Part shown: piece after piece, positions 18,081-31,072 of the stretch
How positions within the stretch are numbered: position 1 is the stretch's first letter
How the letters are laid out: each line of letters opens with the position of its first letter
Source of the DNA: a virus
Strand: one strand, 5' to 3'
IMG/VR virus record: IMGVR_UViG_3300025012_000232
Span: 1 to 31,072 of that record
Length of the DNA: 31,072 nucleotides
The notes under the pieces: generated by a model
Told to the model about the DNA's origin: nothing
Databases searched by the model: none
What the model saw: the letters and a program-made list of their open reading frames with translations, nothing else
Translations under genes and position numbers: made by a program

Positions 18081-18980
18081 TTACGCTACGTTGTGACCGT
18101 AGCACCATCTCCAGTCATTGAAAAAGTTGGAGCACCTGTAATATCCGGCCATGACAAGTGCCAAAGTCGAAGTGCTTTTATCCCTCAACAGTTCCAGAGG
18201 GATTCTGTCGAGCCAGATGAGCATATCTTTTCTCATCTGCGAGTCCATCAGAAACCAATTCTTCTCATCCGTGATCTGAACGGTTTCGATGACCTGGGGC
18301 TTCCACGACTTGTTGATCGGGTTGATTTCATTGTCCGCAGACTTAAGGTTGCTTTCGGTGATAACAACAGCCATTTCTCCGTTCCCGTTCCCGACCATAA
18401 GGCTGTCGGGAATGACCTCGAAAATGTCACCGTTATCATCCGTGAAAGCGCGCATCGCCTTGCGGGTTGCGACGTAGGAATCGTAGCCCAGCGTAGAGGT
18501 GCCGTAGTTTGATTGATTCGCCACACCCAAAACGCTGGAGACATGGGCCGTCGAACAGAGAGCCAAAGTGTCACCGCCAGCCGCATAAGTGGTATCGAAG
18601 GCGTGATTGAAAACATTGAAGCCGGTTTTTTCGCGGGTTCTTTTCGCGGATCGTGCAAATCCGCTGAAAAAACTCTTCATGATCCCGTACTGATCGTCAT
18701 CCCAGAGTTTGCGTTCGATGATGATCTTCTTTCCCATCTCGGTATGAGAAACCGTCTGTTTGTATCCCTGGGAAGGACTGACGCCTTCCTCAAGAACACC
18801 TTGGAACTGTTGAAAATCTCCCATTCCGTTAATAGACACGACGGTCTCTGTCGCCTTCGTTGATTTCTGAACTGAAAACAGAACAGGAATCAGAGAGACA
18901 TACTGCTTCAACCTTTCCAGATAGTGGGCCATTAATATCGGTTCTGCGATATCCGGCCAATCATTCGATGAAAGAGACAT
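18081..18980 (-). CDS. Major capsid protein (299 aa)
   Basis: A 299-residue protein in the usual slot after the scaffold, of a size suited to the HK97 fold and with the look of the Mu gpT-like class. Features are an N-terminal helix with aromatic residues, VSQTEMGKK-like strand (HTEMGKKIIIERKLWDDDQ) resembling the E-loop/spine transition, LALCSTAHVS in the middle, and TRKAMRAFTDDNGD followed by VIPDSLMVGNG, the conserved 'helix, d-x-x-G, P-x-x-L-x-V' signature of such capsids. AAGGAG lies seven bases before ATG 18980. Residues 166-177 are encoded by a 35-base stretch repeated exactly in a small accessory gene at 27236-27270. The protein is assigned by pattern and order; no structure comparison was done. 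Confidence 0.8.
   Translation of the reverse strand: MSLSSNDWPDIAEPILMAHYLERLKQYVSLIPVLFSVQKSTKATETVVSINGMGDFQQFQGVLEEGVSPSQGYKQTVSHTEMGKKIIIERKLWDDDQYGIMKSFFSGFARSAKRTREKTGFNVFNHAFDTTYAAGGDTLALCSTAHVSSVLGVANQSNYGTSTLGYDSYVATRKAMRAFTDDNGDIFEVIPDSLMVGNGNGEMAVVITESNLKSADNEINPINKSWKPQVIETVQITDEKNWFLMDSQMRKDMLIWLDRIPLELLRDKSTSTLALVMAGYYRCSNFFNDWRWCYGHNVA
18451..18485 (-). repeat. 35-bp segment of capsid gene repeated at 27236-27270
   Basis: This stretch encodes YDSYVATRKAMR in the capsid protein and is identical over 35 bases to 27236-27270, in the same orientation and reading frame. Beyond the exact part, six of the next eight bases on the left-codon side (18486-18493) still agree, so the homology extends over about 43 bases with two mismatches. 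Confidence 0.95.
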
Positions 18981-26821: not shown

Positions 26822-27217
26822 TCATTTTACCGGTACGAATCTATGCGTTGTCGTTGATCCGCAGACAAGGCATTTGAAAAAGCACCAATAGTATCTTCCC
26901 CCCTCTCTTTTTCGCCTATGTACCGGTTTTAATTTGCGGCCGCAATGATCATAGGCATATTCGAATCCGATTGGGACGGTCTGTGGCGATAATGTTATAG
27001 CTGTTTGCGTAGATGGGCGGAATAGTTTTTTAATACCTTCCCATATTCCTCGTCCCCATGTGTACAGACTTCCCCAAAAACCCTTTAAACCAACGGTTCG
27101 CGGCCTCGAAAGTGCGGATTCGTTCTTTATCTGAATCTTCGCAATTTCCACCCTTGACTTGGATTTTTCAAATAATGCTCTGTCAAAATCATAATTGCTT
27201 TTTCTGTTGATTTTCAT
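26822..27217 (-). CDS. Basic protein with C-terminal Cys motif (131 aa)
   Basis: The first 95 residues are basic and include a Trp/Gly-rich stretch (GFWGSLYTWGRGIWEGIKK). The C-terminal 40 residues have YDHCGRKLKP, WCFFKCLVCGSTT and a final basic HRFVPVK, giving Cys spacing that could hold one zinc ion, as in zinc-ribbon domains of nucleic-acid-binding proteins. A strong AAGGAGGT precedes ATG 27217, and the start overlaps the upstream stop (ATGA). Family unknown. Confidence 0.55.
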   Translation of the reverse strand: MKINRKSNYDFDRALFEKSKSRVEIAKIQIKNESALSRPRTVGLKGFWGSLYTWGRGIWEGIKKLFRPSTQTAITLSPQTVPIGFEYAYDHCGRKLKPVHRRKREGGRYYWCFFKCLVCGSTTTHRFVPVK

Positions 27218-27507
27218 AGCACCTCCTTAAGGGCACGCATCGCCTTGCGGGTTGCGACGTAGGAATCGTAACTCAGCGATGGCTTGTTTTTAACAATATA
27301 TCCATTTTTGTTTATATGCACACCTTTCATCATAAATTTTCCCGTAGTAGGAAAGCCATTCCTGGGGAAATTTTGAAAGGCTTTCTTTAATTTTTTAACC
27401 ATCTTGCGTCTCTTTCTTTTCTTTTTAAGCCATTTAGTAAATAGATCCCACTGGTCATTAGCCTTCTTTATCTTTTCCTCTAACTTACCGAGATTAATTA
27501 TAGTCAT
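27214..27507 (-). CDS. Small basic protein ending in a capsid-derived segment (97 aa)
   Basis: I start at ATG 27507 with GAGG seven bases upstream; an in-frame GTG at 27519 would add four residues. Residues 1-50 are helical and very basic (KWLKKKRKRRKMVKKLKKAF). Residues 80-91 are YDSYVATRKAMR, encoded by a 35-base stretch identical to the major capsid gene (18451-18485) and in the same frame; the protein ends six residues later (ALKEVL). The final codons double as the ribosome site of the next gene. Such a shared piece suggests recombination with the capsid gene, or a deliberately copied capsid peptide. Function unknown. Translation is likely but not certain. Confidence 0.55.
   Translation of the reverse strand: MTIINLGKLEEKIKKANDQWDLFTKWLKKKRKRRKMVKKLKKAFQNFPRNGFPTTGKFMMKGVHINKNGYIVKNKPSLSYDSYVATRKAMRALKEVL
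27236..27270 (-). repeat. 35-bp copy of capsid-gene segment
   Basis: Exact match over 35 bases to 18451-18485, in the same strand and reading frame. On the 5' side of the coding direction a further six of eight bases agree (27271-27278 against 18486-18493). The copies lie 8.8 kb apart. A match of this length in frame is not expected by chance. Confidence 0.95.
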
Positions 27508-27512
27508 TTTGT

Positions 27513-27610
27513 TCCTCACTGCACTTCATGTCAACGCAACGCTTCACTCGCCTTCGCCTGACACTCCGAGGGAGCGGAGTTGACGATCCACCGCAGGCTG
27601 TCCTCACTGC
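27513..27610 (-). repeat. 10-bp direct repeats around a structured, GC-rich 78-bp segment
   Basis: TCCTCACTGC occurs at 27513-27522 and again at 27601-27610. Between the copies the sequence is more GC-rich than its neighbours, has an inverted pair ACTCCG/CGGAGT around a 6-base loop and a wider GTCAAC/GTTGAC pair, and on the minus strand contains several GGA triplets. A 37-codon GTG frame (27607 to 27494) crosses it with an SD-like GGAGGG ahead, but its Arg-rich product is unconvincing and it overlaps the next gene. It may be an insertion footprint or a leader. Confidence 0.45.
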
Positions 27611-27914: not shown

Positions 27915-28039
27915 TTCTTATCCTTCGCCGGGTTAGATGTTCGTATCTGCTTTGTCACCGAGACACACGCCTTGACGATTTTCCTTTCTTTCTCAGATTC
28001 CTTTGATTCTGGTATTCGGGGACGGTATCTACAGCTCAC
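27908..28039 (-). CDS. Tiny basic protein between methyltransferase and csrA (43 aa)
   Basis: GTG 28039 overlaps the methyltransferase stop as GTGA, with AAGGAG about eight bases upstream; TGA 27908 lies just inside csrA. The 43 residues are basic and polar (SCRYRPRIPESKESEKERK, then VCVSVTKQ-like KACVSVTKQIRTSN). The junction sequence is nearly the same as that before the methyltransferase gene at 29076. Coupling on both sides argues for translation. Family unknown. Confidence 0.5.
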   Translation of the reverse strand: MSCRYRPRIPESKESEKERKIVKACVSVTKQIRTSNPAKDKKC

Positions 28040-29076
28040 TTCTTCTTTCTCCTTCGGGGCAAAATATTAGTAAACGGCAACGGCTCGTCAACTTGCATTA
28101 TCCGTCTCTCTGCCATCTCGACATATTTTGGATTCAGCTCTATTCCGATATATTTGCGATTCAGTTTTTTGCAGACTACCCCCGTAGTCCCCGCGCCAAA
28201 GAACGGATCAAGAACTACCCCGTCATCGGGGCATCCTGCGAGTATGCAGGGAAATATCAAATCTTCGGGGAAGACTGCAAAGTGGGCTTCTGAAAACGAT
28301 TTTGTACTGACGGTCCAGACATCCCGCTTGTTCCGCATGGCCCCGCATTGTTCAAATTTGGTCATTGCGTCCCATCGGTCGTTAAATCCGCAATGCCTCC
28401 GGCCGTGATCCCTTTGTTTATCATGGTTCTTCCCGTCATAATCCTTATAGACAATTCTCCTGTCTTGTGGTTTTGCGTCTCTTGTGGTGTCCATATAAAT
28501 ACCGGGTTCTTTTATGGCTTCATTGTTATAATAGTATTTCTTTGATTTCGCTAACATGAAAATATACTCGTGGCTTTTAGTGCATCTGTCAGTCACGCTC
28601 TCCGGCGTCGGGTTAGGCTTCGCCCAGATTATATCCTGCCGGAGATACCAGCCGTCCGCTTGCAGGGCGAATGCAACACGCCACGGGATCCCAATTAGGT
28701 CTTTAGGTTTTAGACCCGCTGTTATTTTATTTTGTTGTTTTAATATGCTGATTTGATTTCTACTTCCACCCCGCAATGAAATCAAATCAGTAGCTTGTTT
28801 TTCGGTCCGATCCTTTCCCGGTGAAGCGTAACTATCCCCCAGATTCAGCCACAGTGTCCCGTCCTTCCTTAACACCCGATGAACCTCCCTAAATACCTCG
28901 ACAAGTTTATGAACATAGGCCTCTGGCGTGGATTCTAACCCGAGCTGGCCTTTCACCCCGTAGTCACGCAAACCGAAATAGGGCGGGGAAGTGACGCAAC
29001 AGTTTACGGACTCATCTGGAATAGTCCTCAGAACCGTTAGACTATCCCCCGTAATTATCCTGTTTATCAATTTCAC
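28036..29076 (-). CDS. DNA methyltransferase, N4-cytosine/N6-adenine beta-type (346 aa)
   Basis: The catalytic motif IV is TSPPYFGLRDY at about residues 29-39 and the AdoMet-binding motif I DPFFGAGTTG follows near the C-terminus at 290-299, with YIGIELNPKYVEMAERRI as the motif II region. Motif IV before motif I defines the beta group of exocyclic amino methyltransferases; SPPY is typical of N4-cytosine enzymes, although some N6-adenine ones have it. I start at GTG 29076 (VKLINRIITGDSL) after AAGGAG, not at the upstream in-frame start, because it overlaps the preceding stop (GTGA). No restriction endonuclease is next to it, so it is probably an orphan enzyme masking phage DNA from host restriction. 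Target sequence unknown. Confidence 0.88.
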   Translation of the reverse strand: MKLINRIITGDSLTVLRTIPDESVNCCVTSPPYFGLRDYGVKGQLGLESTPEAYVHKLVEVFREVHRVLRKDGTLWLNLGDSYASPGKDRTEKQATDLISLRGGSRNQISILKQQNKITAGLKPKDLIGIPWRVAFALQADGWYLRQDIIWAKPNPTPESVTDRCTKSHEYIFMLAKSKKYYYNNEAIKEPGIYMDTTRDAKPQDRRIVYKDYDGKNHDKQRDHGRRHCGFNDRWDAMTKFEQCGAMRNKRDVWTVSTKSFSEAHFAVFPEDLIFPCILAGCPDDGVVLDPFFGAGTTGVVCKKLNRKYIGIELNPKYVEMAERRIMQVDEPLPFTNILPRRRKKK

Positions 29077-29249
29077 TTCTTTCTCCTTCGGGAGGGGCGG
29101 TAGTGAGGGCAAACAATCAGTTCTAAATCATCGGGAAAGTTTTTATAACAGTTCTTTTTGTCGCAAAAATGCAAAGGGAGCCATGTGTAAAAATAACTAC
29201 ACCCATCCTTATCCTTTCTTCCGCACCACCTCGGCTTCTTTCGCTTCAT
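29073..29249 (-). CDS. Cys-rich mini-protein upstream of methyltransferase (58 aa)
   Basis: ATG 29249 follows GAGGAGGAATAA, in which the ribosome site is the end of the preceding gene; TGA 29073 overlaps the methyltransferase GTG. The 58 residues include RWCGRKDKDGCSYF, HFCDKKNCYK and VCPHY, a pattern of five Cys and some His that could bind zinc, and the chain ends in basic RPSRRRKK. It is absent from simple ORF lists because it is short, but its overlaps on both sides are convincing. Family not recognised. Confidence 0.6.
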   Translation of the reverse strand: MKRKKPRWCGRKDKDGCSYFYTWLPLHFCDKKNCYKNFPDDLELIVCPHYRPSRRRKK

Positions 29250-29252
29250 GGC

Positions 29253-29459
29253 TTATTCCTCCTCATCGTAATCCGTTTTCCTGTTGGGTCTAAGCCCGTA
29301 TGCTTTCCTTTCAGATTCTGTTAAGTCTTTTTCTGACCCCATTGGATTATTCCACGGTTTGAATGGATCATCCCGGTGCATTGGATTATTATGCGGAGCG
29401 AACGGATCGCCTCTACTCATTGGATTGTTCCACGGAGCAAACGGATCATTATTTCTCAT
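29253..29459 (-). CDS. DPFxPWNNPM-repeat mini-protein (68 aa)
   Basis: Residues 4-42 are three tandem copies of a 13-residue unit, DPFAPWNNPMSRG, DPFAPHNNPMHRD and DPFKPWNNPMGS, encoded by 29334-29450. An acidic/basic tail follows (EKDLTESERKAYGLRPNRK) and ends in DYDEEE. AAAGGAG lies before ATG 29459. Pro-Trp-Asn-Asn-Pro repeats suggest an extended, multivalent linear motif rather than a globular fold, perhaps a binding decoy or assembly tether. I recall similar repeats in small phage proteins but cannot name a family. Confidence 0.65.
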   Translation of the reverse strand: MRNNDPFAPWNNPMSRGDPFAPHNNPMHRDDPFKPWNNPMGSEKDLTESERKAYGLRPNRKTDYDEEE

Positions 29460-29907: not shown

Positions 29908-30078
29908 TCAGTCTGATTGGTCATCTTTTCCGTAAAATTTATCTATCAGTTTTCCAGCGCACTCCTCGCAGGCTTTCTTTTCGTGTTTTAGAATATATAC
30001 GGCAACATCACCTACCTTGATTTTCTTTCCGCAATATCCACACTTAAAATCCCATTTTACTATAAACGATCCTCCCAT
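29908..30078 (-). CDS. Zinc-ribbon mini-protein (56 aa)
   Basis: ATG 30078 shares a base with the TGA of the upstream gene (TGATG), and TGA is at 29908. The sequence has FKCGYCGKKI at about residues 11-20 and KACEECAGKL at about 36-45: two CxxC pairs about 20 residues apart, as in treble-clef/zinc-ribbon folds. The remaining residues are charged. It may bind nucleic acid or a host protein; phages carry many such modules in early or accessory regions. Function cannot be read from sequence. Confidence 0.6.
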   Translation of the reverse strand: MGGSFIVKWDFKCGYCGKKIKVGDVAVYILKHEKKACEECAGKLIDKFYGKDDQSD

Positions 30079-30368
30079 CACTTACCTCCCGTGGTCTGTT
30101 CCGCTACCGTGTCGAGGGCTGTTCGGGCCATCCTAATAGCTTTGTCCATTTCAAGGGAATATTTGACATTTATTGTTTTACAATGGACAAGTTGCTCCAA
30201 CGCCTCCCTCATCACCTTGTTCGCCTCCCGGAGAGACTTTATCTCCGTTACGCAGTCCCCATAGTCACTATATTTAATAAATGGCCCATCGGGGCATTTC
30301 ACTATTTTGCTATATGGATGCCCATCATACATTTCGCCATAGCGCGTAATCTCCGATGTGTGCTTCAT
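30078..30368 (-). CDS. Unknown accessory protein with helical C-terminus (96 aa)
   Basis: A 96-residue protein overlapping the stop of the upstream repeat gene by ATGA. The N-terminal half has GEMYDGHPYSKIVKCPDGPF, whereas the C-terminal half is a charged helix (EIKSLREANKVMREALEQLV, KAIRMARTALDTV) typical of small phage accessory proteins found among lambdoid-type early regions. No motif allows a function to be given. Confidence 0.5.
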   Translation of the reverse strand: MKHTSEITRYGEMYDGHPYSKIVKCPDGPFIKYSDYGDCVTEIKSLREANKVMREALEQLVHCKTINVKYSLEMDKAIRMARTALDTVAEQTTGGK

Positions 30369-31072
30369 GTCTTGCCTCCGGTTGTAAAGAATTCCTTGTA
30401 TTTTTCCGCTTCGTATGCGCCTTTCGTCAACTCGATTATTTTTTTAACAGTAACCGTCTCAGGTGTCTTCCTCTGGTCCATCCATGCCCGGACTCCGCCT
30501 TCACAAGCTCCGGTTATGACTCGATATGACCTGATCGCGTCTCTCTTTGTTACAACCGTATCGAGTTTCCATTTTTTGAACTCGGACGGATCACGGTTGC
30601 CGATTTTAAATAGCAGGCCGTCTCTTGCTTCTCGCAGGGTCTTTCCGTGCGAAAACACTTCGCCATCTGTGACGAGATAAGAAATCTCTGTCTTGCCGCA
30701 AATCTTGACATGAGCCACGGGTCCGCGTTGAGATATGATTTCTGCCAGGATTCCGTCAGCGAAAGAAAATCCCGCTTTTGCAAACGATTTTAACAGAAGA
30801 TCCTGGCAACTCAGTAATGCCTTGTCATTATTTGTTTTTACAGAAGAAAAGTCACCGCTTGCGTCGATGGAACCGCCGACATTTTCTAATTTCGGAAACG
30901 CTGTCTTCGTGTCGCTCCCGAATGCGTAGATGGAACCGCCGACATTTTCTAATTTCGGAAACGCTGTCTTCGTGTCGCTCCCGCGTGCGTCGATGTAACC
31001 GCCGACATTTTCTAATTTCGGAAACGCTGTCTTCGTGTCGCTCCCGCGTGCGTAGATGGAACCGCCGACATT
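30365..31072 (-). CDS. Repeat-solenoid protein with conserved C-terminal domain, 5' end outside window
   Basis: An open frame runs from the right edge to TGA 30365, 235 residues visible; the ATG at 30718 is internal and not the true start. The first part is a tandem repeat of 21 residues, NVGGSIYARGSDTKTAFPKLE, split here as NVGGSIYARG and SDTKTAFPKLE, three full copies plus a partial one. A Gly-Gly, hydrophobic, Leu pattern per unit suggests a leucine-rich-repeat or beta-solenoid fold. The C-terminal part (KICGKTEISYLVTDGEV, HGKTLREARDGLLFK, DAIRSYRVITGACEGG) resembles a domain I recall following such repeats in other phage proteins. Role unknown; repeat domains often bind proteins. Confidence 0.7.
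   Translation of the reverse strand, partial: NVGGSIYARGSDTKTAFPKLENVGGYIDARGSDTKTAFPKLENVGGSIYAFGSDTKTAFPKLENVGGSIDASGDFSSVKTNNDKALLSCQDLLLKSFAKAGFSFADGILAEIISQRGPVAHVKICGKTEISYLVTDGEVFSHGKTLREARDGLLFKIGNRDPSEFKKWKLDTVVTKRDAIRSYRVITGACEGGVRAWMDQRKTPETVTVKKIIELTKGAYEAEKYKEFFTTGGKT
30861..31072 (-). repeat. 63-bp in-frame tandem repeats
   Basis: Units start at 30861, 30924, 30987 and 31050 (spacing 63 exactly), continuing beyond the edge. The complete units differ only at four bases in three codons, while the other 18 codons are identical base for base. They encode 21-residue repeats of the solenoid protein. Confidence 0.95.

Follow-up and report, generated by a model that had tools for sequence, protein, structure and literature searches.

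A few variable residues within otherwise near-identical repeats set the specificity of TAL effectors and of the variable lymphocyte receptors (VLRs) of lampreys; TAL repeats are helical and bind DNA, and VLRs belong to an animal immune system that builds them from cassettes in the genome. The HNWD NOD-like receptors of the fungus Podospora anserina (het-d, het-e) carry near-identical WD40 repeats that undergo concerted evolution and display a 'high internal conservation' (PMC12222747). The same text describes a few hypervariable sites under diversifying selection on the predicted interaction surface, polymorphism in repeat copy number, and arrays at which Illumina assemblies fail (PMC12222747). 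In diversity-generating retroelements, whose mechanism is outlined in PMC10907252, an error-prone reverse transcriptase uses a template repeat to rewrite codons.

The DNA considered here (the window) is a virus record of 31,072 bases, a phage fragment, at whose end lies a repeat gene on the minus strand (31072 to 30365, stop at 30365; 235 residues, P0001) that lacks its 5' end. Tandem Repeats Finder reports a 63-base array at 30855-31072 with 3.5 copies and 94% matches, and the gene, read on the minus strand, consists of 3.5 units of 21 residues followed by about 150 non-repeat C-terminal residues. The three full units encode NVGGSIYARGSDTKTAFPKLE, NVGGYIDARGSDTKTAFPKLE and NVGGSIYAFGSDTKTAFPKLE, and the partial fourth reads NVGGSIDASG. 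The features of the gene are:

30365 to 31072, minus strand: 5'-truncated repeat-protein gene P0001, from its open frame and translation and from relatives
31010 to 31072, minus strand: repeat unit 1, variable residues S, Y, R
30947 to 31009, minus strand: repeat unit 2, variable residues Y, D, R
30884 to 30946, minus strand: repeat unit 3, variable residues S, Y, F
30854 to 30883, minus strand: partial fourth unit, a capping strand, residues S, D, S
31058 to 31060, minus strand: x1, first variable codon of unit 1 (equivalents at 30995-30997, 30932-30934, 30869-30871)
31052 to 31054, minus strand: x2, second variable codon of unit 1 (equivalents at 30989-30991, 30926-30928, 30863-30865)
31046 to 31048, minus strand: x3, third variable codon of unit 1 (equivalents at 30983-30985, 30920-30922, 30857-30859)
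30365 to 30808, minus strand: conserved C-terminal domain (HG...A...L..K...R and YR.ITGAC..G), from alignments of relatives

The original prediction for this locus held that the three full 63-bp units share 18 of their 21 codons and that all four base differences are non-synonymous and restricted to codons 5, 7 and 9; reading the minus strand from 31072 bears out both statements. The coding strand and the continuation into a non-repeat domain of 150 residues go beyond what the prediction stated. The differing codons are TCC/TAC at position 5, TAC/GAC at position 7 and CGC/TTC at position 9, which correspond to base columns 14, 19, 25 and 26 of the unit, and the partial fourth unit contributes a third allele (AGC, Ser) at codon 9. 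The chance that four random variable columns would all fall within the nine columns of the three codons that vary in the family is 0.0002, and about 23% of random single changes in the unit would be synonymous. Taken by themselves, the three units of the window make a modest codon argument, and one that becomes strong once the relatives are added. An open frame of 98 residues on the plus strand (30778-31071) was dismissed; it is the opposite strand of the repeat gene, and no relative points there. The idea that the record is circular and was broken within the array was likewise rejected; the first 720 bases of the window contain no repeat in any frame, and the missing 5' part of the gene is therefore not at the other end of the record.

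P0001 has no significant match in Pfam, NCBIfam or PHROG (best phrog_32205, E 0.037), and no convincing match to the C-terminal domain was found in these collections for the window protein and its relatives either (for the protein of L012, best phrog_5758, E 0.0075); PADLOC models matched none of seven proteins. Within IMG/VR, the window protein detected nine related loci and the C-terminal domain of six members detected 18, and a 21-row alignment of this domain retrieved 161 relatives, of which the best 80 were kept. Thirteen columns are invariant in the 21 rows, including those of the motif YR.ITGAC..G. The arrays that precede the domain differ widely: ADTKTAFPKLTTVGGSLDARG (the window type), LPDNLTVGGSLYLSGTQIT, IPEGFNPTVGGSLDLRSLTS, LPVLTSVGGSLYISADAK and others with a GG-x-L-x-A/L-x strand, as well as nine-residue SSGDYAKVA, eight-residue CTFKTGSD and NSHVVARG units. 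On a 79-row tree of the C-terminal domain, the solenoid class (a regex label, with 18 of the 79 rows labelled 'other') changes at least 27 times, the least possible number being 7 and the mean after shuffling 52.9; hence, solenoid classes are inherited but often replaced. The nearest relatives of the window form a four-row set (support 99/91) in which two different repeat classes occur. Searches with the repeats yielded loci of which the C-terminal-domain profile matched 25 of 80 (the best 80 of 157) and 18 of 79 (the best 79 of 99); some of those without a match are cut by the contig end, and others have complete, unrelated tails. Several loci with SSG-type arrays end in another tail without the C-terminal domain.

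Among GTDB genome contigs, the repeat query found no relative and the C-terminal-domain query found three loci; a profile search of cellular genomes detected the domain in two of 391 from one class and in one of 192 from one phylum, with the starting genome counted in each. The domain is rare in cellular genomes. In 50,697 phage records, six queries found it only in HQ225832/NC_019930 (a single phage, TJE1), PP511318, OQ789245, OQ268095 and MT835900; the phages concerned are Tetrasphaera phage TJE1, Dulem virus 31, the Riemerella phages CRP5 and CRP6, and MT835900. Residues 38-167 of the Dulem virus 31 protein (L012) form an SSG-type solenoid that resembles E. coli YdhT (NF007410; E 1.2e-24, 87 bits, under the curated cut-off of 300), a protein whose repeat differs from that of the window. 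In Riemerella phage CRP6 (L122, 4782-5390), a short BspA-like array precedes the C-terminal domain and the gene is annotated as 'ribonuclease inhibitor', a name that probably derives from the repeat only. The reading frame of the domain seems interrupted near its end at one locus (L029, near 4400), perhaps by a broken gene or a sequencing error.

Tabulating substitutions codon by codon across many arrays, as the original prediction had suggested, shows that change at the three sites is almost wholly non-synonymous. In the main class, GG-x-L-x-A-x (50 arrays, 228 units), in which the same three strand residues vary, the three sites hold 156 non-synonymous and 5 synonymous minority codons, and all non-site columns together hold 149 and 107. 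Since the pattern used to find the repeats fixes some columns and thereby biases their non-synonymous counts downwards, the comparison was made with columns 8 and beyond; in the filtered set, from which cap-like units had been dropped, it stands at 137:5 for the three sites versus 75:67 (Fisher p = 7.5e-19, a value that is only a guide because minority codons of related arrays are not all independent events). Near-duplicate loci (L051, L081, L085, L108, L116, L118) and arrays that lacked two or more units at regular spacing had been removed before the 50 arrays were counted. Twenty-one arrays, with 82 units and with the window among them, are homogeneous in that they have at least 95% codon identity outside the three sites: here the ratio of non-synonymous to synonymous minority codons is 44:0 for the three sites and 6:2 for the remaining codons, the latter count being low by choice, since the arrays were selected for identity outside the sites, and the former not. 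Eighteen of these 21 arrays vary at the sites, L035, L066 and L101 being invariant there, and most of them have few codons per site. Older arrays (L070, L099, L075, L062) carry many changes also outside the three sites. The other solenoid types (SSG, 7 arrays; CTF, 5; NSV, 2; ATI, 2) vary mostly at a few columns, and nearly all of these changes are non-synonymous. Synonymous codons at constant positions differ between phages and hardly do so within a homogeneous array, a hallmark of concerted evolution. The residues S/Y/W, D/Y/N and R/S/K/E recur at matching sites in distant phages, and the alleles therefore look old and reassorted.

The original prediction had also placed the three variable residues close together on one face of a solenoid, and the model of a relative is in line with this. 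AlphaFold2 folded the protein of L051, with 30 alignment rows, at a mean pLDDT of 85.8 and a pTM of 0.64; the predicted strands (49-52, 70-74, 91-95) coincide with the variable stretch, and the variable residues (48/50/52, 69/71/73, 90/92/94) alternate with Ile and Ala and should therefore point outwards. A search of this model with Foldseek against the PDB gave nothing with an E-value under 0.001, and one against BFVD gave five matches under 0.001, all of them phage proteins and three of them named uncharacterized. The matches listed by VIA-align are L domains of the insulin- and EGF-receptor family, with a best Z of 8.8 over 111-116 residues, a score that lies below the value of about 13 under which matches between repeat proteins may reflect a common arrangement. 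For an SSG-type protein (L106), the best model (pLDDT 79.3, compared with 64-71 for the remaining four) predicts a regular solenoid that repeats every nine residues, and the protein of L037 has a near-threshold match to Recep_L_domain (PF01030; E 2.7e-4, 21.5 bits versus a cut-off of 21.8). The array is predicted to form a beta-solenoid, perhaps of the kind seen in receptor L domains and leucine-rich repeats (LRR).

The number and order of the units differ between close relatives. Two loci from different metagenomes, L050 and L051, share 3,572 identical bases upstream into the array and about 2,100 downstream and have seven and three full repeats, respectively, so that they differ by four units of 63 bases exactly. 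Repeats can be collapsed in assemblies of short reads (PMC6868369), and this pair alone is therefore not proof of turnover. In thirteen enterobacterial prophage loci, where a related solenoid is joined to a different tail, the arrays comprise 4-17 repeats, and the order of these is scrambled; the loci lie within L126-L146 and L283-L285 and include three complete E. coli chromosomes. Left out were L286, whose array and annotation equal those of L285, L287 with its single unit, the cut locus L130, and L151, which has a different tail. Their 108 units carry 32 non-synonymous and no synonymous minority codons at the sites, compared with 2 and 2 in the 17 other codons, and the site codons are TCG/TGG/GGG, GAC/TAC/CAC (GAA once) and CGC/GAA/AGC, that is, three or four per site. 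An exchange of CGC for GAA alters all three bases and no intermediate is seen, so that recurrent point mutation is a poor explanation and exchange between units a good one. The N-terminal part and tail of these prophage proteins are mostly 86-99% identical to the reference (one N-terminal part, for which the start was not found, 67%). The constant repeat codons, synonymous sites included, are more alike between the prophages than the unique parts of the gene; phages may exchange arrays with one another. Sites only 6 to 12 bases apart show four-gamete combinations in 11 of the 22 arrays that could be tested, as expected if crossovers within a unit are frequent.

The original prediction read the locus as a recent repeat expansion with selection or directed diversification on a binding surface. 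Expansion, homogenization and reshuffling of the units are recent, array length changing quickly; the origin of the variants is not, since the same variants (S/Y(W), D/Y, R/S(E)) are present in distant phages, which the prediction itself had named as an argument against recent diversification, and the alleles look old and reassorted.

A contig end lies inside the gene in 37 of 80 contigs. Seven IMG/VR contigs (among the best 79 of 99 relatives) have matches to SSG-type arrays near both of their ends (L215/L234, L236/L240, L237/L272, L248/L264, L266/L267, L278/L280 and L238/L282), as if a circular molecule had been cut open at an array that could not be assembled.

For the 115 ORFs that adjoin the gene in relatives, a count that rests on a greedy choice of ORFs and not on annotated genes, the named PHROG and Pfam matches fall mostly into DNA metabolism (Erf, RecT, SSB, helicases, SbcC, NinB, exonucleases); one ORF has an Acb2/Tad1 hairpin, two tail-sheath families are represented by one member each, most matched families have one or two members, and many ORFs are unmatched. 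ERF genes are located a few genes away in Tetrasphaera phage TJE1 and in Riemerella phage CRP6; in prophages of E. coli, the gene is followed by exoX and an AAA ATPase and has a LexA-family or S24 repressor upstream. The genes of such regions in lambdoid phages usually act early and inside the cell. Further along the same strand of the window are:

30078 to 30368, minus strand: next gene, overlapping the repeat gene at the latter's stop; unmatched in PHROG
28036 to 29112, minus strand: DNA methyltransferase (phrog_67, E 1.2e-80)

The PHROG matches of named function in the window (methyltransferase, large terminase, portal, major head protein) are all on the minus strand, and no recombinase was found among the ten window proteins scanned. 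Two further observations concern this stretch. A 55-base segment of the major head protein gene (18439-18493) recurs with 87% identity 8.8 kb away at 27224-27278, a copied fragment of the capsid gene that occupies the 3' end of a short reading frame (27214-27519). An ORF of 68 residues on the minus strand (29253-29459) consists of three similar units, DPFAPWNNPMSRG, DPFAPHNNPMHRD and DPFKPWNNPM, and is thus a second repeat protein, on the same strand as the main array and unrelated to it.

How might such a pattern arise? The original prediction had considered directed diversification by a diversity-generating retroelement, and the codons at the sites in the window, which all end in C (TCC, TAC, GAC, CGC, TTC, AGC), are of a kind that AAC codons in a template could produce; the targeting of variation to the surface would likewise suit such an element. 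However, RVT_1 was detected in none of 26 records (the window and many of the others being fragments), compared with 3 of 14 control genomes, and the direct repeats of the window, an incomplete genome, include nothing resembling a template. Other lineages use TCG/TGG/GGG, AAA, GAA and AGA at the sites, and the variation extends over most units of a long array instead of one 3' variable repeat. Moreover, the three or four alleles per site in the 108 enterobacterial units are too small a set for random adenine mutagenesis and do not show its spectrum; we therefore do not uphold this part of the prediction and regard a retroelement as extremely improbable. Ordinary mutations in young units after a recent, neutral tandem duplication would account for near-identical repeats with only four variable columns in the window, but they would hardly strike the same three codons in independent arrays at 44:0 and in enterobacterial prophages at 32:0, nor produce the same alleles in distant phages. 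We consider neutrality very unlikely.

Two other alternatives concern what the protein does. Repeat solenoids are common in phage fibers, and two tail-sheath families are matched by adjoining ORFs, both of which would suit a receptor-binding or adhesion protein of the virion with a variable tip. Yet in the window small genes and a methyltransferase follow the gene, the portal and head genes are at a distance, and the informative neighbors elsewhere are mostly genes of DNA metabolism; a role in the virion thus appears improbable to us. More serious is the proposal that the same evolutionary engine serves a different purpose, with the protein acting as a sensor, encoded by phages or prophages, of competing phages (superinfection or abortive defense) and with the C-terminal domain as its output module, instead of inhibiting host or defense proteins. 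The nearest analogue, the fungal HNWD system, is a sensor; the solenoid is joined to different tails in different phages, as in sensor/effector proteins; and several relatives reside near the repressor in prophages of complete genomes. On the other side, the C-terminal domain has no match to a known effector, and the gene tends to adjoin replication and recombination genes. We view a sensor as a possible but rather doubtful reading.

In our view, this is most likely a phage protein that acts early and within the cell and binds a partner with a specificity that can be swapped. What the data display directly is the codon pattern, the changes in array length and order, and the swapping of solenoid types on one family of C-terminal domains; with no reverse transcriptase in 26 records and with small, old and shared codon alphabets, homologous recombination plus balancing selection fits these observations. 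A constant C-terminal domain would be combined with an N-terminal beta-solenoid whose strand face presents three variable residues per repeat, and this array would serve as a binding surface of quickly changeable specificity. Homologous recombination between near-identical units, both within a genome and between related phages, would add, remove and reassort units and at the same time homogenize the 17-18 constant codons, while selection for altered binding would keep the three exposed sites polymorphic for a small number of old codons. The neighboring replication and recombination genes, and the rarity of virion genes among the neighbors, suggest that the protein acts inside the host cell early in infection, where its target might be a variable host, defense or rival-phage protein; the genes of the neighborhood also point to the phage recombinases Erf and RecT as candidate agents of the shuffling. 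We consider this explanation, taken as a whole, somewhat more probable than its failure. A bolder version, which we put forward tentatively, sees in these arrays a retroelement-free repertoire generator: a fixed and small codon alphabet at three exposed sites of each repeat (for example Ser/Trp/Gly x Asp/Tyr/His x Arg/Glu/Ser) would continually be recombined into new arrays, so that every lineage of phages would possess an intracellular binding protein that changes quickly and is used against variable host or rival proteins, perhaps in a manner comparable to lamprey VLRs or TAL effectors.

Should this explanation be correct, a widespread and apparently undescribed group of phage proteins would gain fast changes in specificity through repeat recombination on a constant scaffold, and recombination among repeats would achieve what retroelements do by targeted mutation. 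It would name candidate counter-defense or competition proteins that annotation has missed ('hypothetical', 'ribonuclease inhibitor'), explain why many phage contigs (the 37 of 80 mentioned above) break at one gene, and offer repeat scaffolds of natural origin in which three residues of every repeat form a code that can be read.

The phage arrays share with TAL effectors and VLRs near-identical repeats that have a few variable residues each. Receptor L domains and LRR proteins (PF01030; BspA-like LRR) may have a fold like that predicted for the array, but the window protein lacks a Pfam match and the phage repeats are homogenized at the DNA level. As in the targets of diversity-generating retroelements, insofar as PMC10907252 outlines them, surface codons of one region are diversified on a constant scaffold; unlike those targets, the phage arrays have a small allele set and many repeats varied at once, and reverse transcriptase and template were not found in the 26 records and in the window, respectively. 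The closest parallel is with HNWD. In both, the repeats within a gene are near-identical, synonymous sites included (6:2 outside the sites in the 21 arrays); hypervariable sites, in the phage protein predicted to be exposed, show an excess of non-synonymous change (44:0; 137:5); and the number of repeats is polymorphic among close relatives (4-17, and 7 versus 3 with the assembly caveat given above). Concerted evolution of the repeats and the breakdown of short-read assemblies at the array are further points in common. The differences lie in the architecture: the phage solenoid is joined to an unrelated C-terminal domain, whereas HNWD proteins are fungal receptors with a beta-propeller and NACHT and HET domains. 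A Pfam scan of the window protein (5' end missing) and ten relatives found no NACHT, HET or WD40 domain. Searches of open-license PubMed Central text listed no paper whose title or opening of the abstract deals with a phage version of such arrays; the evolutionary pattern is known from the fungal HNWD receptors, and its phage counterpart is apparently undescribed. The phage protein works like the HNWD repeats but is not a member of the HNWD family.
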